From: Mucilaginibacter dorajii
GTDB lineage: Bacteria; Bacteroidota; Bacteroidia; Sphingobacteriales; Sphingobacteriaceae
Reading direction: 5' to 3'
NCBI RefSeq assembly: GCF_024808255.1
Contig: NZ_JANTYS010000020.1
Span: 1-64,000 of the forward strand
DNA: 64,000 nt
The notes beneath the pieces are model-generated. The model saw only the letters and a list, made by a program, of their open reading frames with translations, was not told the DNA's origin and did no database searches. The position numbers were made by a program, and so were the translations under genes. Positions 9,843 through 20,318 of the stretch are shown here, piece after piece; positions within the stretch are counted from its first letter, which is position 1; each line of letters opens with the position of its first letter.

Positions 9843-11021
9843 ATGATCGTTTCCAAAAAAGCCACCAATATTTTCATTCACGCTGCAGGCTGGTTGGTAT
9901 TTTTTGGTTTCCCGCTGTTATTTATGAACCGTACACAGCAAAGCAGCAGCAGTACGTATACTATTATTCAATCGCCATACTACTGGCTGTTTTGTCTCAC
10001 CTATATTTTCATGTTTTACTTTAACGCCTGGTTCCTGGTGCCAAGGTTTGTTTTCAAAAAAAACTATTTTGCATACGGGCTTATTGTGCTGCTGCTATCG
10101 GGCTGTGTGTACTTTTTGCAGCCTTTTGATAATTTACTGCTGCACAACCTGCTTAAGGAGAAACAAACCACTGTTGTGCCTATAGGGCCGCAGTTGATAC
10201 CCAATGCAGATAGTGGTTCAGTAGGCCCTAAAAACCTACCCTTCGGGCCGCTGCCTCATGAAGACCTGCGGATGCAGGACCCCAGCTTAAAAAAGCCATC
10301 CAACCAGGTGATCTTTATACATCAATCGGGCAATATAGATATGGTGGGCCTGTTCATTTTTATTATTGTGATAGGTTTAGGCATTGCCATGAGTACTGTG
10401 CAAAAATGGCAGCTTACAGAGCAAATGGTGATCAGGGCCGAAGCCGAAAAGGCGCATGCCGAACTGTCATTCCTCAAAGCGCAGATCAACCCGCATTTCC
10501 TGTTCAACACACTCAATAACATCTACGCGCTATCGGTTACAGACAGTGAGCATACGTCAGAGAGTATCATGAAGCTATCTAACATCATGCGCTATGTAAC
10601 CGACGAGGTTACAGAAGATTTGGTATTGCTGCAAAGTGAGGTTGATTGTATCAATGATTACATCGACCTGCAAAAGCTTCGCCTGGGTAAAAAAACCACG
10701 CTCGATTTTGATGTTACCGGCGAAATCAATCATCAAAAAGTACCTCCCCTGGTGTTAATGACCTTTATTGAAAACGTTTTTAAATATGGGGTGAGCAAAC
10801 ACGAGGCTTCGGCCATTGGCATAACCCTCAATGTTTCACCCGGAAAAATTTTGTTCGCCTGCGAAAATACCATATTCGACAACCGCCCTGCAAGCGGCCG
10901 CAAGGGCATCGGCATCAGCAATACACGCCGACGGCTCCAGCACATCTATCCCGGTAAACACCGGCTCACCATCACCCAGGATAATTCAACGTTTAGGGTG
11001 GAGTTAGAGATTGATATTTAA
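9843..11021 (+). CDS. LytS/YehU-type sensor histidine kinase
   Basis: 392 aa. Four hydrophobic stretches (about 11-28, 47-66, 77-94 and 168-184) give a membrane-embedded sensor with a Pro-rich loop between 105 and 155. A short coiled segment leads to a His_kinase (PF06580) domain with LKAQINPHFLFNTLNN, placing the phosphorylated histidine at His218, and a degenerate HATPase_c region with FIENVFKYG and GKGIGISNTRRRL-like motifs. It should phosphorylate the LytTR regulator encoded 90 bases downstream. The stimulus cannot be inferred. Confidence 0.9.
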   Translation: MIVSKKATNIFIHAAGWLVFFGFPLLFMNRTQQSSSSTYTIIQSPYYWLFCLTYIFMFYFNAWFLVPRFVFKKNYFAYGLIVLLLSGCVYFLQPFDNLLLHNLLKEKQTTVVPIGPQLIPNADSGSVGPKNLPFGPLPHEDLRMQDPSLKKPSNQVIFIHQSGNIDMVGLFIFIIVIGLGIAMSTVQKWQLTEQMVIRAEAEKAHAELSFLKAQINPHFLFNTLNNIYALSVTDSEHTSESIMKLSNIMRYVTDEVTEDLVLLQSEVDCINDYIDLQKLRLGKKTTLDFDVTGEINHQKVPPLVLMTFIENVFKYGVSKHEASAIGITLNVSPGKILFACENTIFDNRPASGRKGIGISNTRRRLQHIYPGKHRLTITQDNSTFRVELEIDI

Positions 11022-11111
11022 ACTATTCGAAGCTAAATGATACAACCTTACTAATTGTTGAGTGCAAGCTTAGCCTTGCATGGTATTTCTGTTTATTTAA
11101 ATAACATCAAG

Positions 11112-11807
11112 ATGCAGTTAAAATGTGTAGCCATTGATGATGAACCGCTGGCGCTGGAGATCATCAAAAAATATGTATCAGATTATCCATCACTTAAAAT
11201 GGTGAACACCTTTGAAGACGCGATATCTGGTGCCGAGTACTTAAAAAGAAACAAGGTAGATGTGCTTTTCCTGGATATAAATATGCCAGATATTACCGGG
11301 GTAGACCTGGTACGCTCGCTCGACGAAAAGCCCATGATCATATTCACCACAGCCTATAAAAAATTTGCATTTGAGGGCTTTGAGCTGGAAGCTGTGGATT
11401 ATTTGCTGAAGCCCATTAACAGCACCCGCTTTGGCGCTGCTGTGCATAAAGCAATTGACCAGTACCAATTTAAACATGCCGACCATACTGCCGAGGACGA
11501 GCACATCTACGTACACTCGGAATACCGGGTGATCAAGATAGGAATTCGGGATATTGAATATATTGAAAGCATGCAGGATTATATCAAAATACACCTGTTA
11601 AGCGCCGAAAAACCGGTACTTACGCTGATGTCATTAAAAAGCATGATAGAAAAGATCCCGGCGGGCCAGTTTATCCGCATACACAGGAGTTTTGTGGTAT
11701 CCAGGGCACAGATCAGATCGATATACAACCGTAAGGTGAAGCTGCGCAATATTGAGCTTCCTGTGGGTACCAACTACGCCGATTTTATAAAAGACTGGGC
11801 AAAATAA
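11112..11807 (+). CDS. LytTR-family response regulator
   Basis: 231 aa from the ATG at 11112. The open frame extends to 11055, but the first 19 codons precede the canonical start MQLKCVAIDDEP and are not family-like. The receiver domain (about 1-120) has acidic Asp9/Asp10, phosphoacceptor Asp55 (VLFLDINMPD) and the K in LLKPIN. The C-terminal LytTR DNA-binding domain (about 140-230) shows IEYIESMQDYIKIHL and IRIHRSFVVS. It pairs with the upstream kinase. Targets are unknown. Confidence 0.9.
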   Translation: MQLKCVAIDDEPLALEIIKKYVSDYPSLKMVNTFEDAISGAEYLKRNKVDVLFLDINMPDITGVDLVRSLDEKPMIIFTTAYKKFAFEGFELEAVDYLLKPINSTRFGAAVHKAIDQYQFKHADHTAEDEHIYVHSEYRVIKIGIRDIEYIESMQDYIKIHLLSAEKPVLTLMSLKSMIEKIPAGQFIRIHRSFVVSRAQIRSIYNRKVKLRNIELPVGTNYADFIKDWAK

Positions 11808-12012: not shown

Positions 12013-12390
12013 ATGAAGCCCCTTAGCAGCAAAAAAAAGATCCTGATTTTGGATAAGAACAGTAGAATGTTATCTGTAATTGATGATATTATGTATTACG
12101 GCGATTTTGACGTTCATTTAACCTATGACCCTAACGCCATTTACGATAAAGCAAAGGTGATAAATCCCGATCTGATCATTTTAGATTACCTGCTGCTTGA
12201 TGTGGACTGCGCTTTGGTATGTCAGGATTTTAAAGATGATGCCCAGTTGCGTGAGGTACCCATTATTGTGGTAACCTCCTTCAAAACAAAAAAAGGATTG
12301 GAAGAATCTTACAAATGCGACGCTCTTTTTGTAAAACCATTGGATATGGAATTGCTAGCATCACGCATGGAATATTTAATGGCATCATAA
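12013..12390 (+). CDS. stand-alone response-regulator receiver domain protein
   Basis: 125 aa, a single receiver domain with no output domain. Phosphoacceptor Asp58 lies in LIILDYLLLD, the conserved Thr/Ser in VVTSFK and the Lys in LFVKPLD. Only one residue of the usual N-terminal acidic pair is present (LILDKN). It may relay phosphate or act by protein contact. It is 92 bases upstream of the PqqD-like gene on the same strand, so it could be the first gene of that operon or an independent regulator of it. Confidence 0.85.
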   Translation: MKPLSSKKKILILDKNSRMLSVIDDIMYYGDFDVHLTYDPNAIYDKAKVINPDLIILDYLLLDVDCALVCQDFKDDAQLREVPIIVVTSFKTKKGLEESYKCDALFVKPLDMELLASRMEYLMAS

Positions 12391-12482
12391 TTAAGGCATT
12401 ATTAAAAAACATCAGTTTTGTAAAAGCCGCATAAACCAATTAAGTTTAACCTTTATTATTAACGGTACCTGCAAACAGTTAA

Positions 12483-12731
12483 ATGAAGATCAAAAGTAAC
12501 ATAGCCACCAGCGAAAACGGGTTTATTTTTAATCCCGCCACAGGCGATTCCTTTTCTGGTAATGCCATAGCGGCAACCTTGCTGCTGGCCATGAAAAGCG
12601 GCAAAACCGAACAGGAAATAAAACAGGATATTCTTGACCGCTATGATGTTAAAGCCGATCAGTTAAACCGCGACTGGGAAGACTGGATGTTGCAGTTAAA
12701 GGAAGCCAACCTGCTTGAAATTGACGCATAA
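12483..12731 (+). CDS. PqqD-like peptide chaperone (RiPP recognition element)
   Basis: 82 aa, the length of a free-standing PqqD-family protein. The pattern of an N-terminal beta-hairpin (GFIFNPATGDSF, then an AATLLLAMKSGKTEQEI helix) and a C-terminal winged-helix half (ILDRYDV, then LNRDWEDWMLQLKEANLLE) fits the PqqD/RRE fold. Known members bind leader peptides and present them to modifying enzymes. It overlaps the ATP-grasp start by one base. The next protein but one carries a leader-like YxxP motif, so an in-operon client is possible (inference). Confidence 0.75.
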   Translation: MKIKSNIATSENGFIFNPATGDSFSGNAIAATLLLAMKSGKTEQEIKQDILDRYDVKADQLNRDWEDWMLQLKEANLLEIDA

Positions 12732-13783
12732 TGGCCAACAGATACGCTAATTTATGTATTGCCATTACCGGGCTTAATGCCAATGACAATCCAGGCCCGG
12801 GGATGGCAGTGATCCGTTCTTTAAAGGAAAGTTTTGGAGATAGTTTAAGAATAATTGGCTTGTCATATGAATCATTGGAGCCGGGGATTTACATGCGCGA
12901 CCAGGTAAACAAAACCTACCAGGTACCTTACCCAACAGAGGGTACAACCGCTTTGCTCGATCGTCTTGCTTACATCCATCAGCAGGAAAACCTTGACCTG
13001 TTGATCCCCAATTTTGATTCGGAGTTGTTTAATTTTATCAAAATAGCGCCGCAGTTGCAGGTTATGGGCATTACAACCTTTTTGCCGGGCCATCAGCAAC
13101 TAAGTCTTCGGGATAAGGTTCATTTAAAGGAGTTTGGCGAAAAGAACGGCTTCTACGTACCTGCAGATCAAAAGCTATACCACGCTGATGACCTGCGGAA
13201 AGCTGTAGATGAATTCAATTTCCCGATGATGATTAAGGGGAAATTTTATGATGCACATATCGTTTATACAATGGACCAGGCGCTTAAAGCATTTCACCAG
13301 CTTAACGCAAGCTGGGGTATTCCTGTAATTGCGCAACAGTACATTAAAGGCACCGAAATCAACATAGCTGCTCTTGGCGATGGCAGAGGCAATAATATTA
13401 GCGTAGTAGCCATGCGCAAGCTTTACATCACCGAAAAAGGTAAAGCCTGGGCGGGCGTTACCATAAAAGATGATAAACTAATTGAACTGGCTAATAAATT
13501 CGCGATTACAACCGCCTGGAAAGGCGGCTACGAAATGGAGATTATGAGTAATGATAAGGGGCATTTATATATTTTAGAGATCAACCCCCGTTTCCCGGCC
13601 TGGATTTACTTAACAACAGCAGCAGGGCAAAACCAGCCGGCTGCACTTGTAAAAATGGCGTTGGGCAATGATGTTGCGCCCTTTGAAGATTACCAGGCAG
13701 GCAAATTATTTGTACGCTATTCCTGGGACCATATTGCCGACATAACCGATTTTCAGCAGATCTCGGTATTTGGCGAATTATAA
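12731..13783 (+). CDS. ATP-grasp ligase
   Basis: 350 aa. Residues about 1-110 are a pre-ATP-grasp Rossmann-like domain (NPGPGMAVIRSL) and about 125-310 an ATP-grasp domain. ATP-binding Lys169 lies in MMIKGKFYDA, and Mg ligands are Glu270 (GGYEMEIM) and Glu283/Asn285 with Arg287 in LEINPRF. The family joins a carboxylate to an amine, thiol or imine through an acyl phosphate. The acceptor is unknown. Coupled by overlap to the PqqD-like gene and 10 bases before the PLP enzyme, so these three probably work on one substrate. It does not look like a known primary-metabolism ligase. Confidence 0.85.
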   Translation: MANRYANLCIAITGLNANDNPGPGMAVIRSLKESFGDSLRIIGLSYESLEPGIYMRDQVNKTYQVPYPTEGTTALLDRLAYIHQQENLDLLIPNFDSELFNFIKIAPQLQVMGITTFLPGHQQLSLRDKVHLKEFGEKNGFYVPADQKLYHADDLRKAVDEFNFPMMIKGKFYDAHIVYTMDQALKAFHQLNASWGIPVIAQQYIKGTEINIAALGDGRGNNISVVAMRKLYITEKGKAWAGVTIKDDKLIELANKFAITTAWKGGYEMEIMSNDKGHLYILEINPRFPAWIYLTTAAGQNQPAALVKMALGNDVAPFEDYQAGKLFVRYSWDHIADITDFQQISVFGEL

Positions 13784-13793
13784 CTGAAGCATA

Positions 13794-15149
13794 ATGGAAA
13801 AGCTGCCGTACGAAAAACCCTATATAAAAAAACTGCACGCCGGTGTCATGAACAAATTTGGCACCCGTAGTGGCGTACAACCTGTTAAAAGCATTGATGG
13901 GGTTTTGGTTAAAACATTAATTGAAAATTACGGTTCGCCTGTATTTGTGTTATCAGAAAAGCAGATTCGCAAAAACTACCGCTCGGCCTATAGGGCGTTT
14001 AGCACCCGTTACCCCAAAGTGCAGTTTGCCTGGAGCTATAAAACAAATTACCTGAATGCTGTTTGCCAGGTATTTCACCAGGAAGGCAGCTGGGCCGAGG
14101 TAGTATCGGGCTTTGAGTATGAGAAAGCCGTAGGCAACGGTGTACCCGGTAATAAGATCATATTCAATGGCCCGGGCAAATCAAATGATGAACTAAAAAC
14201 GGCCATCAAAAATGACTCGCTTATCCATATAGATCATTTTGAAGAACTAAACCAGCTACTTATCCTAAGCCAGGAGCTTACCGGTAAGCCGCGCGTTGCT
14301 ATCCGTGTAAACATGGATACCGGTGTATACCCACTTTGGGATCGTTTTGGTTTTAATTACGAAAACGGCGAGGCCTGGACTGCTCTCAGTAAGGTTATCG
14401 ACTCGGGAAAATTACATTTAGCCGGTTTGCATTGCCATATTGGTACATATATGCTTACTACCGATGCCTACGGTATTGCCGCCAACAAACTTTGTGATTT
14501 GGCTATGAACTGCCAAACCCAACTGAACCATAAAATTGAATATATTGACATGGGCGGTGGTTTTCCGTCAACCAATACGCTGAAAGGCGCTTATTTGCCC
14601 GGGCAGGATACTGTCCCATCGGTTGACGATTTTGCGGAGGTTATTACCTCTACCCTGCTTAATTTTGGCTTTGCCAACGAAGATCTGCCTATGCTCATCC
14701 TCGAAAGCGGTCGCGTTTTAATTGACGATGCAGGTTACCTGCTGGGTACCATAATAGCAAATAAGCGTTTAAGCACGGGCAAAAGGGCGCTTATTGTCGA
14801 TTTTGGAGTAAACGTCCTGTTCACCTCCTTTTGGTATGACCATCAGGTTAGCCCCGCGCAGGATTTTATGCCCCATAACGAAAATATGGTAATTTACGGT
14901 CCGCTTTGCATGAATATCGATGTGATTCGCGAAGGCATTAATCTCCCGTTACTTAATCCCGGCGACCAGGTAGTAGTGCACAAGGTTGGCGCTTACAACA
15001 TGACCCAATGGATGCAGTTCATTACCTTAAGGCCGGCCGTAGTTTTGATAGATGAGCAACAGCGCCCCCACCTCATCCGGTCAAACGAAACATTGGGTTA
15101 TATCGAGGAGCCTGAATTTATACCTATTCATTTAAAAGCCAATAAGTGA
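13794..15149 (+). CDS. fold-type III PLP enzyme, diaminopimelate/ornithine decarboxylase-like
   Basis: 451 aa. Residues about 45-300 are the alanine-racemase-like PLP barrel with Schiff-base Lys83 (FAWSYKTNYL), the LHCHIGTY segment and the phosphate-binding DMGGGFPS loop. Residues about 300-430 are the C-terminal beta domain with LESGRVLIDDAG and a YGPLCMNID region, in which the catalytic Cys sits as in DAP/ornithine decarboxylases. Before the fold is a 35-residue extension with YEKPYIKKLHAG (residues 6-17), which resembles the YxxPxLxxxG leader motif read by RRE domains in lasso-peptide systems. Primary lysC/lysA-type context is absent. It overlaps the next gene by four bases. Confidence 0.8.
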   Translation: MEKLPYEKPYIKKLHAGVMNKFGTRSGVQPVKSIDGVLVKTLIENYGSPVFVLSEKQIRKNYRSAYRAFSTRYPKVQFAWSYKTNYLNAVCQVFHQEGSWAEVVSGFEYEKAVGNGVPGNKIIFNGPGKSNDELKTAIKNDSLIHIDHFEELNQLLILSQELTGKPRVAIRVNMDTGVYPLWDRFGFNYENGEAWTALSKVIDSGKLHLAGLHCHIGTYMLTTDAYGIAANKLCDLAMNCQTQLNHKIEYIDMGGGFPSTNTLKGAYLPGQDTVPSVDDFAEVITSTLLNFGFANEDLPMLILESGRVLIDDAGYLLGTIIANKRLSTGKRALIVDFGVNVLFTSFWYDHQVSPAQDFMPHNENMVIYGPLCMNIDVIREGINLPLLNPGDQVVVHKVGAYNMTQWMQFITLRPAVVLIDEQQRPHLIRSNETLGYIEEPEFIPIHLKANK

Positions 15150-17302
15150 AGCAAGTATCAGCCTTTATAAAATCTATCGTTAATTCCTATTCGGTGCTGT
15201 TTTTTTCACAGAACCGGGTATTAGGGATCATTTTGCTGCTGGTTTCTTTTTTCAATCCAATTTCTGGTGTGGCTGGGCTTAGTTGTGTTATCCTTTCTTT
15301 GCTGGTGTGCCATCTGCTAAAGTTTCATGGCGATAACCTGCAATTGGGTATCTACAGTTTTAACAGCTTATTACTGGGGATAGCGTTTGGTGCTTTTTAC
15401 CATGTAAATTTCCTATTTGTGATTTGGCTGATTACAGCTTGTGTTATGGTGACTTTTACCTCTGTCATCATTTCAAATCACCTTGCAAAATCAAAACTCC
15501 CTATGCTTTCACTGCCATTCATCCTGCTTTTTTGGATAGTTTTATCGGCGGCAAATAGTATTTTTAATACCGGGCTGCAACAAAAAAGCAGCTACCTTTT
15601 AGAGGAAATTTATACAGGTACCGGCAATATTGCCGGCATTGAAGCATCACTGGCCTTAGCATTACCTAACCTGGTTGGCTTGTTCTTCCGCGCTTTAAGC
15701 GCCGTTCTTTTTTTGCACAGTGTCATCGCCGGTATTTTAATCAGCATCGGCATGCTTATCCACTCGCGTATTGCGTTTAGCTTGTTAATTATCAGTTTCA
15801 TTACGGCCTGTGCTTTAAATAGCGTTACCCACACTTATCCCGAAGGCATCAGCTACTATCACCTGGGTGCAAACTTAATGATGGCCGCAGTCGCTATCGG
15901 GAGCTTTTTTACTATCCCCTCCCTGCGCTCCTATCTGTTGGCTGTGCTAAGTATTCCGCTGGGCTTTATAACCATTAATGGCCTCACCGGTTTTATGAGC
16001 GTACACGCGCTGCCTATATTTTCATTGCCATTTTGCATTGTAAACATTGGTATGCTTTGCCTGTTGTTGCAACGCAAGTGGACTGGCAAGCTTCAATTAG
16101 CACATATCCAGCATTACTCGCCCGAAAGAAACCTGTACCAGTATTTAAACCAGGAGCAACGTTTAAACGATTTAAAATATATCCGCCTAAACCTTCCTTT
16201 TATGGGCTATTGGACGGTTTCGCAAGGCTATGATGGCAACATTACCCACAAAGGCGACTGGGGGCAAGCCTTAGATTTTGTGATAACCGATGACGAGCAA
16301 AATACTTATCAATACCCCGGCACTTTACCCGAGCATTTTTACTGCTTTAATAAACCTGTACTGGCCTGCGCGGATGGTATTGTAGAAGCGGTTGTTAGCC
16401 ACGTAGAGGATAACGCCATTGGTAAACAAAACCTCAAGGAAAACTGGGGTAATACCATCGTAATAAAACACTTAAATGGCTTATACTCTAAAGTATCGCA
16501 CCTCAAAAAAAACTCTATCAAAGTAAAACCGGGCGAATTAGTGAAACAGGGCGACCTGTTAGCTCAGTGTGGCAATTCCGGTCGTTCACCAGAACCACAT
16601 TTGCATTTTCAATTGCAGGTTACACCTTATATCGGATCCAAAACTTTACGTTATCCGTTTGCTGGTTACTTTAACAAGATCAATGGTAAAAATCTGTTAG
16701 AAAGCTATGCTATACCAGCCGATGGTTTGTTGATAAGCAATGCCGAGGTAAATAGTCCGTTAAAAAAAGCGTTCGACCTGCAACCAGGCTATACCGCCAA
16801 ACTTGTTGATAGCAATAGTTTAGGCCAGTACTGGGAGGTTTTTAAAGATCCATTGGGGCAATTGTATATTTATTGCAAAACAACAGGCGCTGCTGCTTAT
16901 TTTATCAATAACGGTTCGATGTTTTATTTTACCAGTTTTTATGGCGATAAGCAATCATTGCTGTATAAATTTTATCTTGCAGCCTATAAAGTTATTTTTA
17001 ATGATGCAGAGGATCTGGTGATTAATGATAATCTGCCCTTGCATTTAACTCATAGTAAAGCCCTTCTTTGGTTGCAGGATATCATAGCTCCGTTTTACAG
17101 GTTTATGGATATCAGTTACAGGGGTAATGTTTTAACTAAAAAAAACGGTTTAAGTATCATATCAAAACAATATACCATCATCGGCAAAAAGCAAACACAA
17201 ACAACAGAGGCCTCGGTCTATATAGATCATGGTAGCCTGCAAAGCTTTAATATTACTATAAACGGCGAACATACTGAAGCAACATGGAGTACAGAAAACT
17301 AA
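15146..17302 (+). CDS. urea-transporter domain fused to an M23 metallopeptidase domain
   Basis: 718 aa. Residues about 10-310 contain around ten hydrophobic helices matching the urea transporter family (GDNLQLGIYSFNSLLLGIAFG and a second related half near 235-280). Residues about 340-500 are an M23 peptidase: His368 and Asp371/Asp377 in HKGDWGQALD, and His485/His487 in PEPHLHFQL supply the zinc site. About 200 further residues (510-718) have no family I recognise. M23 enzymes usually cut peptidoglycan cross-bridges or glycine-rich peptides. It is coupled to the PLP enzyme (ATGA-type overlap) and overlaps the next gene by 19 bases. The fusion suggests export or processing of a small product across the inner membrane (inference). 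Confidence 0.8.
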   Translation: MKQVSAFIKSIVNSYSVLFFSQNRVLGIILLLVSFFNPISGVAGLSCVILSLLVCHLLKFHGDNLQLGIYSFNSLLLGIAFGAFYHVNFLFVIWLITACVMVTFTSVIISNHLAKSKLPMLSLPFILLFWIVLSAANSIFNTGLQQKSSYLLEEIYTGTGNIAGIEASLALALPNLVGLFFRALSAVLFLHSVIAGILISIGMLIHSRIAFSLLIISFITACALNSVTHTYPEGISYYHLGANLMMAAVAIGSFFTIPSLRSYLLAVLSIPLGFITINGLTGFMSVHALPIFSLPFCIVNIGMLCLLLQRKWTGKLQLAHIQHYSPERNLYQYLNQEQRLNDLKYIRLNLPFMGYWTVSQGYDGNITHKGDWGQALDFVITDDEQNTYQYPGTLPEHFYCFNKPVLACADGIVEAVVSHVEDNAIGKQNLKENWGNTIVIKHLNGLYSKVSHLKKNSIKVKPGELVKQGDLLAQCGNSGRSPEPHLHFQLQVTPYIGSKTLRYPFAGYFNKINGKNLLESYAIPADGLLISNAEVNSPLKKAFDLQPGYTAKLVDSNSLGQYWEVFKDPLGQLYIYCKTTGAAAYFINNGSMFYFTSFYGDKQSLLYKFYLAAYKVIFNDAEDLVINDNLPLHLTHSKALLWLQDIIAPFYRFMDISYRGNVLTKKNGLSIISKQYTIIGKKQTQTTEASVYIDHGSLQSFNITINGEHTEATWSTEN

Positions 17303-18471
17303 TCATATTGCTGGCTTTGCCATTTATTTTCCTGACCGCCAAAGCGCAGGAGAATAACCGTATCCTGACCGATAGCATTGCCGAAGAACTTTATAACGCC
17401 GGCGACTGGAAACAGTTGATCACCTGGGGAAATAAGCCCATGGCAGATACCTCTGATTTCCCGGCCTTGCATTTTAAAATAGGTTATGCCTATATGGTGA
17501 CCGGCAATTATAAAGCGGCCATAAATCAATTTGACTTTGTTTTAAATAAAGAGCCCGCTAACTCTACAGCGCGGCTTTATCAATATTACTGCAACAACTA
17601 TTTAAATAACAACGCGGGTGCCTCCTATCAGGCCGGCTATTTAGATAAAGAAACCTTACATTCTATAAAACTTTCACCGTTTGGATTAGTAACGGCAGAT
17701 GTTGAAAGTGGTATTAAGCTACCTAATAATAATGAACGCGATAACGGCTTTTTTGAAAGGGCCGGAATCAGCACCAGGCTGTGGTGGCGGTTTCAGTTAG
17801 ATCAGTCATATATTTCCTTTGACCAAAAAATATTCAGGGAGTTTTACAGGGATAGATATGGTGATAAATTTTTATTCGGTAAAACAGATAAACAAAAAGA
17901 ATACTTTGCCAGGCTGCAATTTACAATTAACGATAAGTTGAGTGCAATTGGATCCTACCATTACATTTACACAACTTTTAGAGGCAAAACAGACTATAGT
18001 AATTTAGGGTTGCTTGGCATAACATATACCGGACAATATGTTAATTTGCAGGGAGACATTAACTGGGGCAATTTAATTGGTAAAGCATTAAAACAATATG
18101 ATGCCAAATTGGATTTTTATCCACTGGGCAACCTTAACTTTTACACAACAAGCAGGGCTTCGGTATTGGATTTAAGCGGAGTTAAGAGCTTTATTTACAA
18201 CCAGGCAATAGGGTTTAAACTATTAAACAATACATGGATCGAAACAGCGGCAACCTTCGGTAACGAGGATGACTACCTTGATAATGATGGTTTGTATGTT
18301 TATAACTCCATTGACCCAACTAAGTTCAAAGCCGGCGAAACCTTGTTTTACCAGGTAAGCAAACACGCGCTGTTGAGGTTAAACTATCTTTATGAAAAGA
18401 AAACCGACATTTATCGGGATATAAATTATAATCAAAATTCTGTTACGTTAGGTATAACATGGAAATTTTAA
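17284..18471 (+). CDS. TPR-containing outer-membrane beta-barrel protein (YaiO-like)
   Basis: 395 aa with signal peptide (about 1-21, ending TAKA). Residues about 30-115 hold two TPR-like helix pairs (NAGDWKQLITWGN, then GYAYMVTGNYKAAINQFDFVLNKEP). From about 135 onwards the sequence alternates polar and hydrophobic residues with aromatic girdles and ends in WKF, the C-terminal phenylalanine typical of outer-membrane barrels. It may form the outer-membrane exit or anchor for the system. Overlaps the preceding gene by 19 bases and the next by 13. Confidence 0.7.
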   Translation: MEYRKLIILLALPFIFLTAKAQENNRILTDSIAEELYNAGDWKQLITWGNKPMADTSDFPALHFKIGYAYMVTGNYKAAINQFDFVLNKEPANSTARLYQYYCNNYLNNNAGASYQAGYLDKETLHSIKLSPFGLVTADVESGIKLPNNNERDNGFFERAGISTRLWWRFQLDQSYISFDQKIFREFYRDRYGDKFLFGKTDKQKEYFARLQFTINDKLSAIGSYHYIYTTFRGKTDYSNLGLLGITYTGQYVNLQGDINWGNLIGKALKQYDAKLDFYPLGNLNFYTTSRASVLDLSGVKSFIYNQAIGFKLLNNTWIETAATFGNEDDYLDNDGLYVYNSIDPTKFKAGETLFYQVSKHALLRLNYLYEKKTDIYRDINYNQNSVTLGITWKF

Positions 18472-19079
18472 AAAAGACGTTTATAACAGCATTTTTATTT
18501 TTTCTGGCAATAGGCTTGCGGGCGCAAACCGGCGTGGCGCTGCAAAAAGCGTTTCGCAATAGCTACTCTGATGAGCAAAACAAAAACTATGTTGCCGCAA
18601 TTAATGATATATACCCTTATCTAAACGATAACAATTACGAAATCAACATCCGTTTGGGATGGCTGCATTATCTCAGTAAAAACTATACCGCATCACAGTC
18701 CTATTATCAAAAAGCCATCAGTTTAAAGCCAATGTCTATCGAGGCCAAATTTGGCTATGTTAAACCGCTTTCATTTTTACAAAGCTGGGATAGGGTAATT
18801 GAACAATACCTGGCTATCTTGAAAATTGATCCGCAAAATACGCAGGCAAACTACTGGGCAGGTATAATTTATTATAACCGCAAACAATATGATGCGGCAA
18901 TTAAATGTTTTAAAGTTTTAGTTACCCTTTACCCATTTGATTACGATGGTAACCACATGCTGGGATGGAGTAATTTAATGGCGGGAAAAAAAGCAGACGC
19001 TAAAGTCTTTTTTGAAAAAGCGTTAGTAATAAAACCATCAGATGCTTCCAGTACAGACGGGTTAAACCGTTGCAATTAA
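18459..19079 (+). CDS. secreted TPR-repeat protein
   Basis: 206 aa with signal peptide (about 1-23). Four or five TPR units run through the rest, for example LGWLHYLSKNYTASQSYYQ, AGIIYYNRKQYDAAIKCFK and LGWSNLMAGKKADAKVFFE. TPRs are protein-protein adaptors, so it is probably periplasmic and bridges the barrel protein and inner-membrane fusion protein. Last gene of the cluster; 150 bases of gene-free sequence follow. Confidence 0.8.
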   Translation: MEILKKTFITAFLFFLAIGLRAQTGVALQKAFRNSYSDEQNKNYVAAINDIYPYLNDNNYEINIRLGWLHYLSKNYTASQSYYQKAISLKPMSIEAKFGYVKPLSFLQSWDRVIEQYLAILKIDPQNTQANYWAGIIYYNRKQYDAAIKCFKVLVTLYPFDYDGNHMLGWSNLMAGKKADAKVFFEKALVIKPSDASSTDGLNRCN

Positions 19080-19229: not shown

Positions 19230-20318
19230 ATGAAAATAAAACATATACTTTTTAAAGTACAAATGGCAGGCTGTCTGTTGCTGATGATAGTTTCCGCTTC
19301 CTGCAAAAAAGATAAAACTTCCCCTATTGCTGCAAATGCAACCCCTACAACCCTGGGTTTATATGAATATGCAAGCGATGTTAACAAAAGGGTGCTTATA
19401 GCCATCACAAAAATAGGTACGCAAACCGTAAACTACGGGAGTATATTTGACACCGGATCACCGGGTATGACCATGGACGCCAATGGCATTATTCCCGCGT
19501 CAATGATCACCTCATCGGGCTTTGTATTTACTACTGATTCGGTTGTTGTAAACGGCATTACTATTACATCAAAAAAGGATTCAATCAGCTACGGCGATGC
19601 TACCGGTATCACCAAAGAATACGGCAATCTTGCATACACCAATGTTACTGTGGGTAACTCACTTGGCAGTATCGAATTAAAGCGCGTTCCTTTTTTTCTA
19701 TATTATAAAATTATTGACAGCAAAAAGAATCAGTTAGCTGCTCACTCAGCTGATGTTTTTGGTGTAGGACCGGGTTTAAGTAGTACTATCACAGCCATAT
19801 CAAGCCCTTTACGTTTTTTCACATATGGCACCGGTCTTACCAATGGCTTTAAGCTGGCTACATTGCCAACTGCCAGCTTTTTAACCACACCAACCTATGT
19901 TGCAGGTTTGCTCACAGTTGGTTTAACAAGTGATGATCTTTCGTCGGCAGGGTTCATTATGCATCCCTTAACACCAACAGTTTTATATGGTTACTCGCCC
20001 AACATACCTGGTACGATAACCTATGGTGGCACTACAATTTCGGCCCAATTCCTTTTTGATACAGGTACACCATCTGTAACAGTTATCGAAAACAGGCTGG
20101 CCTCTGTAGGGAAGCTTCCATCAAATACCACCGTAACCTTAACAACAACTAAAGGTTTTACCTATACTTATGTAACGTCAAATACAGGCAACCTTACCGA
20201 AGTTCAAAACCCCAGCAATACACAGGATTACCGTACAATTTTAGCTTTGGATTTTTTTATCAAAAACGAATACCTGACAGATTATACCAATCACCAGATT
20301 GGTTTGAAGAATAATTAA
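19230..20318 (+). CDS. pepsin-like (A1-type) aspartic protease homologue, lipoprotein
   Basis: 362 aa lipoprotein: lipobox VSASC with Cys25. Two catalytic-type motifs lie 203 residues apart, IFDTGSPG (Asp74) and FLFDTGTPS (Asp277), as in bilobal pepsins. Between them SISYGDATG (119-126) lies where the pepsin flap (YGTG) is expected and is followed by a TVTVG-like NVTVG. ADVFGVGPGLSS resembles the pepsin DGILGLAYPSISS turn. The C-terminus TILALDFFIKNEYL then HQIGL mirrors the pepsin WILGDVFIRxYYTVFD and KVGLA ending. Bacterial A1 peptidases such as shewasins are known but rare. It should face the periplasm or cell surface. The client is unknown, and catalytic activity needs testing. Confidence 0.7.
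   Translation: MKIKHILFKVQMAGCLLLMIVSASCKKDKTSPIAANATPTTLGLYEYASDVNKRVLIAITKIGTQTVNYGSIFDTGSPGMTMDANGIIPASMITSSGFVFTTDSVVVNGITITSKKDSISYGDATGITKEYGNLAYTNVTVGNSLGSIELKRVPFFLYYKIIDSKKNQLAAHSADVFGVGPGLSSTITAISSPLRFFTYGTGLTNGFKLATLPTASFLTTPTYVAGLLTVGLTSDDLSSAGFIMHPLTPTVLYGYSPNIPGTITYGGTTISAQFLFDTGTPSVTVIENRLASVGKLPSNTTVTLTTTKGFTYTYVTSNTGNLTEVQNPSNTQDYRTILALDFFIKNEYLTDYTNHQIGLKNN

Follow-up and report, generated by a model that had tools for sequence, protein, structure and literature searches.

A Bacteroidota gene set with a predicted pairing between a PqqD-type recognition protein and a leader-like tag on a PLP decarboxylase, next to a urea-transporter/M23 fusion

The known role of recognition elements (RREs) in ribosomally synthesized and posttranslationally modified peptide (RiPP) pathways is to read disposable precursor peptides. 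Discrete RREs of lasso peptide pathways are mostly associated with the leader motif [Y/W]xxPx[L/V/I/A/F/Y] (PMC13381572), and lasso leaders carry YxxPxL at positions -17 to -12 and Gly at +1 (PMC10368454). In the RRE LppB, D70 bonds the leader Tyr and N33 fixes the Pro, with complex formation nearly abolished by N33A, and PbaB1 bound a Tyr leader strongly after the exchange G42N/Q79D (PMC13381572). Here, we describe a locus in which such a motif lies at the N terminus of an enzyme. It is located in a 64,000-nucleotide stretch of Mucilaginibacter dorajii DNA (contig NZ_JANTYS010000020.1, positions 1 to 64,000; referred to as the window), from a genome of 7.16 Mb in 55 contigs. Checking the open reading frames (ORFs) of the window revealed seven plus-strand ORFs at 12013-19079, which code for a stand-alone receiver domain, a PqqD-type RRE, an ATP-grasp ligase, a pyridoxal phosphate (PLP) decarboxylase, a fusion of a urea transporter and an M23 metallopeptidase (UT-M23), and two tetratricopeptide repeat (TPR) proteins, the first with an inferred barrel (Table 1). 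These seven same-strand genes had been listed as a candidate system in a preliminary description of the locus, in which those from PqqD onward were proposed to work together; all were present at the positions it gave and contained the expected Pfam domains.

PqqD, ATP-grasp, PLP decarboxylase, UT-M23, TPR-barrel, and TPR form a conserved six-gene unit. Gene order was compared in three overlapping sets of loci: 35 from related genomes; 80 named loci, which were the best 80 of 449 in a separate collection and partly share organisms with the related-genome set; and 33 distant loci from across the phylum, of which 30 came from 29 of 33 other ATP-grasp carriers (all but G151, G246, G364, and G484) and 3 from genomes G098 and G113. 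The order PqqD, ATP-grasp, PLP, UT-M23 was intact in 31/35, 72/80, and 30/33 loci, respectively, including all 30 loci of the 29 other carriers, and the core was accompanied by TPR in 30/35, 69/80, and 26/33. Loss of this order in other Bacteroidota genomes had been set beforehand as a possible refutation; the order was kept, in line with the view of the genes as one system. Contig ends accounted for 10 of the 15 exceptions. Among the four in the related-genome set, one (L044) was a contig end; in G098 and G113, UT-M23 stood apart, with the PqqD/ATP-grasp/PLP trio elsewhere in the genome or on other contigs; and G112 contained UT-M23 with no ATP-grasp match, a weak decarboxylase-family match, no PqqD over the cut-off, and no tag of the kind described below. 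Seven of the eight exceptions in the named set were cut by contig ends, and the eighth, L141 (Bacteroidales), had intervening genes between PqqD, ATP-grasp, and PLP as well as a second TPR copy.

UT-M23 was found at near full length in 35/120 related genomes (25/73 within the genus, own genome included, and 10/47 others; two copies had one in-frame stop), and chance was therefore excluded. ATP-grasp was present in 34/395 sampled phylum genomes, corresponding to 27/170 genera (own genome included), so that the system appears scattered across much of Bacteroidota; wider searches were positive in 17/241 genomes of one order (two already known) and 1/98 of one class (already known). Among the best 80 of the 449 loci, the closest was that of Mucilaginibacter flavus, with 79% identity in UT-M23. 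In L200, UT-M23 read as two ORFs of 358 and 393 amino acids (aa), which may reflect a gene disruption, a sequencing error, or natural splitting. In several Mucilaginibacter loci (L049, L052, L053, L054), repeat-like DNA between PLP and UT-M23 lengthened the gap to ∼290 to 355 bases.

The feature linking this unit to leader recognition is a tag at the N terminus of the decarboxylase. The pattern [YF]xxPx[ILVM] was present there in 138/138 full-length copies of the three overlapping sets, mostly followed by G..NKFG; the 142 decarboxylase hits comprised 133 with YxxPx[LIVM], five with FERPxI, and four truncated ORFs. In 113 distinct tag rows, P9 and K21 were invariant, the first position was Tyr in 108 and Phe in 5, G17 and G23 were each kept in 110, and Tyr and Lys were always 15 positions apart (twelve YESP/YEGP copies were excluded from this count by the pattern; as printed, they have the Lys too). 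For comparison, 71 of 2037 other ORFs of at least 100 aa had [YFW]xxPx[ILVM] within their first 40 residues. A profile of the tag, searched in nine genomes, matched the decarboxylase alone at E < 0.1 in eight and nothing in G112, and it occurred once in the own genome. The tag precedes the region matched to known enzymes, as alignment of the decarboxylase profile with the closest solved enzymes did not start before about residue 28 to 33. In the predicted structure, the mean predicted local distance difference test score (pLDDT) was ∼40 at residues 1 to 27, compared with ≥90 for 234 of 451 residues. Counted by the lasso-leader numbering, K21 would be -2 and G23 would be +1 (PMC10368454). Judged by its sequence, the tag is the motif bound by lasso-type RREs, and the "leader" is the decarboxylase's own N terminus and not a separate peptide. 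The earlier idea that PqqD presents a leader thus stood as far as PqqD is the likely leader binder, and was corrected in that the leader-like peptide is located on the enzyme.

The PqqD protein itself scored 36.8 bits with its Pfam family (cut-off, 23.4) and was the sole PF05402 match over the cut-off in a scan of its genome; its best NCBIfam match was lasso_PqqD, below the cut-off. All PDB matches of its profile at E ≤ 1 were lasso RREs: TbiB1 (1.6e-9), TfuB1 (7.9e-6), and 9x90 (0.3, not significant alone). In TbiB1 and TfuB1, D64 was aligned with an Asp, and in 9x90 with Gln97; N27 was aligned with Gly60 of 9x90, which, from its residue numbers, would be PbaB1, an offset of 18 turning Gln97 into Q79 and Gly60 into G42. 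N27 and D64 correspond to LppB N33 and D70, the YxxP-binding residues of that RRE (PMC13381572). N27 was invariant in 121/121 distinct PqqD-decarboxylase pairs and D64 was kept in 116/121. Moreover, D64 was Asp in 116/116 pairs with a Tyr tag, and the Asp was lost in 5/5 pairs with a Phe tag (Tyr in 4, His in 1). Fifteen further loci, two of which had no PqqD or PLP in reach, yielded 13 pairs readable by eye, and 13/13 were consistent (3 Phe/Tyr and 10 Tyr/Asp). Together, the motif, the conserved contact residues, and one paired change suggest that PqqD docks to the decarboxylase tag. Three loci of one genus (L262, L263, L264) have Ser for the RRE Asn, two of them with an altered tag, and may represent a drifting recognition pair. 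The PqqD C terminus was also considered as a LysW-like amino-group carrier and was rejected, its C-terminal end not being conserved.

The decarboxylase contained both Pfam domains of alanine racemase (AR)-fold PLP decarboxylases, with K83 (the PLP lysine), G254-256 (the GGG loop), and C372 (the interface Cys) invariant. Its nearest solved relative was the N-citrylornithine decarboxylase 7kh2 (249 bits; E, 7e-73), followed by the diaminopimelate (DAP) decarboxylase 1twi (188). It shares the CM-x-x-D loop of 7kh2 (here, CMNID); DAP decarboxylase has CESSD, and the Glu of this DAP decarboxylase (DAPDC) loop is replaced by Met in the window enzyme. Scores stayed below the NCBIfam cut-offs for FslC (215.5 versus 500) and for the DAP decarboxylase model TIGR01048 (218.1 versus 297.9), whose CES-x-D loop was likewise missing. 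N-citrylornithine decarboxylase has been grouped with SbnH, AcsE, MccE, and BtrK, unrelated to polyamine synthesis, and glutamate on an 87-aa carrier is given as the BtrK substrate (PMC7857480). Searches of the window genes against Pfam and NCBIfam revealed no acyl-carrier protein; K21 of the tag is a candidate attachment site. The ATP-grasp protein had as its nearest solved chain 2pn1, named just carbamoyl-phosphate synthase large subunit, and its best NCBIfam matches were carbamoyl-phosphate-synthase-like, with no graspetide ligase model among the matches listed. The route through ligation and decarboxylation suggested at the outset is, in our judgment, supported.

In UT-M23, the UT domain scored 150.8 bits with its Pfam family, and residues 1 to 338 of the AlphaFold model matched human UT-B (Z, 35.9; root mean square deviation [rmsd], 2.6 over 315 residues). 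Residues ∼344 to 522 matched M23 domains with Z up to 14.8, and H368, D377, H452, H485, and H487 were intact in 64/64 rows of one alignment and in 129/129 distinct copies of the three sets. The C-terminal 195 residues had no PDB sequence match and were barely probed by the fold matches. Two polar residues of the pore helices, presumably Q24 and E187 in dvUT (positions were taken from the alignment), were followed through the copies. In all 64 rows of one alignment, the Gln position was hydrophobic and the Glu position was Ala or Ser, and in 129 distinct copies of the three sets, the latter was never Glu or Gln. Since this polar pore-helix residue was lost in every copy seen, urea is doubtful as the cargo. 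The stand-alone urea transporter of the same genome (L001) has Gln at both positions and serves as a natural control for the fused domain.

The loops of the UT domain contained 8.7 Lys and Arg residues on the side of the termini versus 2.8 on the opposite side, and the termini side was higher in 64/64 copies (60/64 when the C-terminal stretch was left out). By the positive-inside rule, the M23 domain is therefore predicted to face the cytoplasm. In UT-B, the residues lining the intracellular side include Q68 (PMC10541013). If, as we assume, Q68 is the first Gln of the pore helices, this fits the predicted topology. By itself, the predicted placement of a metallopeptidase on the cytoplasmic side of a urea-transporter fold is a surprise. 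The fusion had been proposed as an inner-membrane protein that may move or trim the product; its inner-membrane placement holds, and trimming in the periplasm is unlikely, because M23 is predicted to be cytoplasmic.

The best explanation of the whole, to which we would give an even chance, is a Bacteroidota-wide biosynthesis-and-export system that uses leader-peptide recognition without a precursor peptide. The PqqD RRE would bind the YxxPxI tag on the decarboxylase N terminus, so bringing the decarboxylase to the ATP-grasp ligase, and the ligase would couple the side chain of an amino acid to a carboxylate or an amine. The decarboxylase would then strip the free alpha-carboxylate, in keeping with the acylated amino acids that its closest relatives use as substrates. 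A decarboxylated amide, as the small product, would leave through the UT-fold channel, at whose cytoplasmic mouth M23 may first trim or free it, like an exporter-fused peptidase, and the outer-membrane TPR/barrel pair would complete the exit. Ligation, decarboxylation, and the direction of transport are deduced here from the chemistry of the families. If the explanation holds, a phylum-wide, enzyme-borne tag would widen what RREs do; an RRE with a tagged enzyme and no precursor would provide a new signature for genome mining, and such tags could help explain precursor-less PqqD genes. The system probably makes a compound that nobody has looked for.

Several observations weigh against this explanation. 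The five Phe-tag rows form one clade (support, 98/93), and family f15, which includes the three additional Phe genomes, is already represented in it; the paired Tyr/Asp change therefore counts as one event, which supports a contact and cannot give statistics. N27 was Ser in 3/13 further genomes, the tag being altered in two of these. In genomes G620 and G677, ATP-grasp and PLP lay on different contigs, with no PqqD or PLP on that of ATP-grasp; a tagged PLP was present on another contig in both. Low pLDDT was also observed in loops expected to lie under the other subunit of the dimer, so that a free tail of the tag is not proven. The first pore position (dvUT Q24) was Gln in 29/129 distinct copies, mostly of the distant branch (8/35 related, 0/80 named, and 21/27 distant), and Glu in 3; to judge by these residues, a urea-type pore partly survives in that branch.

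Among the alternatives, the one surviving best, in itself unlikely, is a peptidoglycan system in which a periplasmic M23 cuts peptides, UT imports them, and ATP-grasp and a DAP decarboxylase-like enzyme remodel them. The intact M23 residues, the distant likeness of ATP-grasp to D-Ala ligases, and the membership of DAPDC in the decarboxylase family would fit. However, the charge bias predicts a cytoplasmic M23, the fusion begins directly in the UT domain, and the genome has its own separate LysA, which carries CESTD and lacks both the tag and the loop Met that the cluster enzyme has in place of the DAPDC-loop Glu.

With a chance we consider small, the tag could instead serve as a carrier: PqqD would hold YxxPxI and present the invariant Lys21, ATP-grasp would load an amino acid on it via the side-chain carboxylate, the enzyme would decarboxylate the cargo on its own tail, and M23 would free the cargo into the channel. 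Lys21 lies at the same distance from the tag Tyr as the processing site in lasso leaders. This would amount to a RiPP-like pathway whose precursor peptide has been turned into an arm of its own enzyme.

Equally small is the chance of a true RiPP pathway, with an unlinked or unannotated precursor as the real substrate and the decarboxylase tag as a mimic or a secondary use. Both PqqD-type RREs and ATP-grasp enzymes are hallmarks of RiPP pathways, and the tag motif resembles lasso leaders. Nevertheless, the tag was confined to the decarboxylase in the nine-genome search, and all 104 ORFs with the strict motif form among 147 loci had the length of the decarboxylase (a precursor lacking the motif would escape both searches); the ATP-grasp matches, too, pointed to carbamoyl-phosphate synthase and not to graspetide ligases. 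We surveyed 1,799 same-strand ORFs of 20 to 120 aa outside the core genes in 134 whole-core loci with 1.5-kb flanks and grouped them by BLAST (E up to 1e-4), by which very short or fast-changing peptides could escape. No family reached more than 14/134 loci. The widest, in 14 loci, lay at the place of an acetyltransferase gene, and the second, in 11, was a cold-shock-type gene of Pedobacter; a 63-aa gene downstream in Pedobacter was rejected, as by eye its product resembles cold-shock-type proteins. No common ORF was present in the PLP/UT gaps of nine genomes. The precursor gene that defines a RiPP cluster was thus not found in the cluster, the genome-wide search covering the tag profile alone, and the initial impression that there is no separate precursor was confirmed to this extent. 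Likewise, a lasso cyclase (asparagine-synthetase-like) and a B2 protease were absent from the Pfam and NCBIfam matches of the window genes searched, with no genome-wide search made.

It is improbable that the genes serve a rhizoferrin-related route to a siderophore-like compound or citryl amine, followed by export. The N-citrylornithine decarboxylase as the nearest solved relative argues for it; against it, the FslC score was far below its cut-off, and no NRPS-independent siderophore (NIS) synthetase, TonB receptor, or major facilitator superfamily (MFS) exporter was found among the ten window proteins searched (neighbors in other genomes were not family-searched). The latter is qualified by a gene just upstream in L199 that by eye is TonB-receptor-like. 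An operon for taking up and metabolizing urea or small amides is highly improbable, since, despite the 150.8-bit UT match, the close UT-B fold, and the first Gln kept in 29/129 copies, the E187 position is never Glu or Gln in 129 copies, whereas both positions are Gln in the stand-alone UT from the same genome.

The remaining features of the locus are outside the core or of local distribution (Table 1). The kinase/LytTR pair (9843-11807) was found upstream in 21/35 related, 40/80 named, and 0/33 distant loci; because of its frequency in the first two sets, the original span of 12013-19079, correct for the genes it held, was slightly narrow. The stand-alone receiver, originally counted as a member, occurred mainly in Mucilaginibacter loci and is a local accessory regulator. 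An ORF of 166 to 170 aa just upstream of PqqD was present in 25/80 named loci (including L107, L113, L118, and L133), several of them labelled Chitinophagaceae; eight copies, one of them longer, were GNAT acetyltransferase-like by eye. This protein may act on the product; as a core gene it was rejected, being absent from the window's own family. In the distant branch (L193, L192, L191, L210), a secreted protein of ∼280 aa with a sorting-like C-terminal domain (by eye) recurred just upstream of PqqD. On the downstream side, the TPR part of the 395-aa protein fell below the Pfam cut-off and was clear by profile, PDB matches being limited to this part, and its C-terminal beta-barrel is inferred; the distant branch has two proteins instead of this fusion, one with TPR and one of 270 to 300 aa that is barrel-like by eye. 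We judge the proposed involvement of both inner- and outer-membrane parts to be supported. The TPR gene is followed at 19230-20318 by a gene for a secreted 362-aa protein with no Pfam or NCBIfam match, which occupies the same place in several Mucilaginibacter loci (L034, L067, L072) and not in others. A promoter scan found no more sites than in shuffled sequences, and PADLOC gave no match on six proteins.

Table 1. Features of the M. dorajii locus. Pfam domains are matches over the family cut-offs, except for the TPR of the 395-aa protein.
Feature	Position	Strand	Evidence
Sensor histidine kinase, His_kinase family; likely regulator	9843..11021	+	Pfam PF06580
LytTR-type response regulator	11112..11807	+	Pfam Response_reg + LytTR
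Stand-alone receiver domain; accessory	12013..12390	+	Pfam Response_reg
PqqD-type RRE, 82 aa	12483..12731	+	Pfam PqqD; PDB profile matches are lasso RREs
ATP-grasp ligase, 350 aa	12731..13783	+	Pfam ATPgrasp_Ter + ATP-grasp_3; nearest solved, 2pn1
Alanine-racemase-fold PLP decarboxylase; nearest, N-citrylornithine decarboxylase	13794..15149	+	Pfam Orn_Arg_deC_N + Orn_DAP_Arg_deC
Leader-like N-terminal tag of decarboxylase, residues 1-23 (YxxPxI, G17, K21, G23)	13794..13862	+	Conservation across copies
UT-M23 fusion, 718 aa	15146..17302	+	Pfam UT + Peptidase_M23; AlphaFold model, pLDDT 88.6; structural matches
UT-fold channel domain, 10 transmembrane helices (TM); both polar pore-helix residues replaced here	15146..16111	+	Alignment, fold match, topology
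M23 metallopeptidase domain, with a predicted cytoplasmic location and all five Zn/catalytic residues	16175..16711	+	Residue alignment, fold, topology
C-terminal domain of UT-M23, unknown fold	16712..17302	+	No PDB sequence match
Secreted TPR protein, 395 aa; inferred C-terminal beta-barrel	17284..18471	+	Profile evidence for TPR
Secreted TPR protein	18459..19079	+	Pfam TPR_2 and others

The preliminary description gave no named pathway with this gene set, and we likewise found no description of the whole set in the open-access literature. The neighborhood may be included in a study of ATP-grasp amidoligases (Iyer et al. 2009). The discrete lasso/LPP RREs (TbiB1, TfuB1, LppB) are similar in their PqqD profile, in the contact residues corresponding to N27 and D64, and in a YxxPxL-type motif, and the distance from Tyr(-17) to the cleavage region of lasso leaders equals that from the tag Tyr to Lys-Phe-Gly; in contrast to these pathways, the leader is fused to an enzyme here, and no core peptide, cyclase, or B2 protease was seen in the cluster. 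Butirosin biosynthesis by BtrI/BtrJ/BtrK also combines a ligase (BtrJ, presumably an ATP-grasp enzyme) with an AR-fold decarboxylase whose amino acid substrate is bound to a carrier, whereas the present locus has an RRE and a tag and no acyl-carrier protein among the cluster genes. The N-citrylornithine decarboxylases FigC/FslC share the fold, the catalytic residues, and the CM-x-x-D loop, but the cluster enzyme has a conserved N-terminal tag outside the matched region, scores below the NCBIfam cut-off, and is encoded in a cluster with no NIS synthetase. Compared with the urea transporters dvUT and UT-B, the full 10-TM fold is kept over residues 1 to 338, while the second polar pore residue is replaced in all copies and the first in most, and M23 and a domain of unknown fold are fused to it. 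Peptidase-containing ATP-binding cassette (ABC) transporters (PCATs) similarly have a transport protein with a peptidase on its cytoplasmic side (a position predicted here), yet combine C39 with an ABC pump instead of an M23 metallopeptidase with a channel. PgaA/YaiO-type outer-membrane proteins share the combination of TPR and barrel (the latter putative here); unlike them, the protein of this locus has no Pfam or NCBIfam match to such a named family, and in the PDB only its TPR part found matches. The parts of the system thus come from known families, and of each whole known system compared, at least one defining feature is missing here; we rate it as a variant of RRE-guided biosynthesis.

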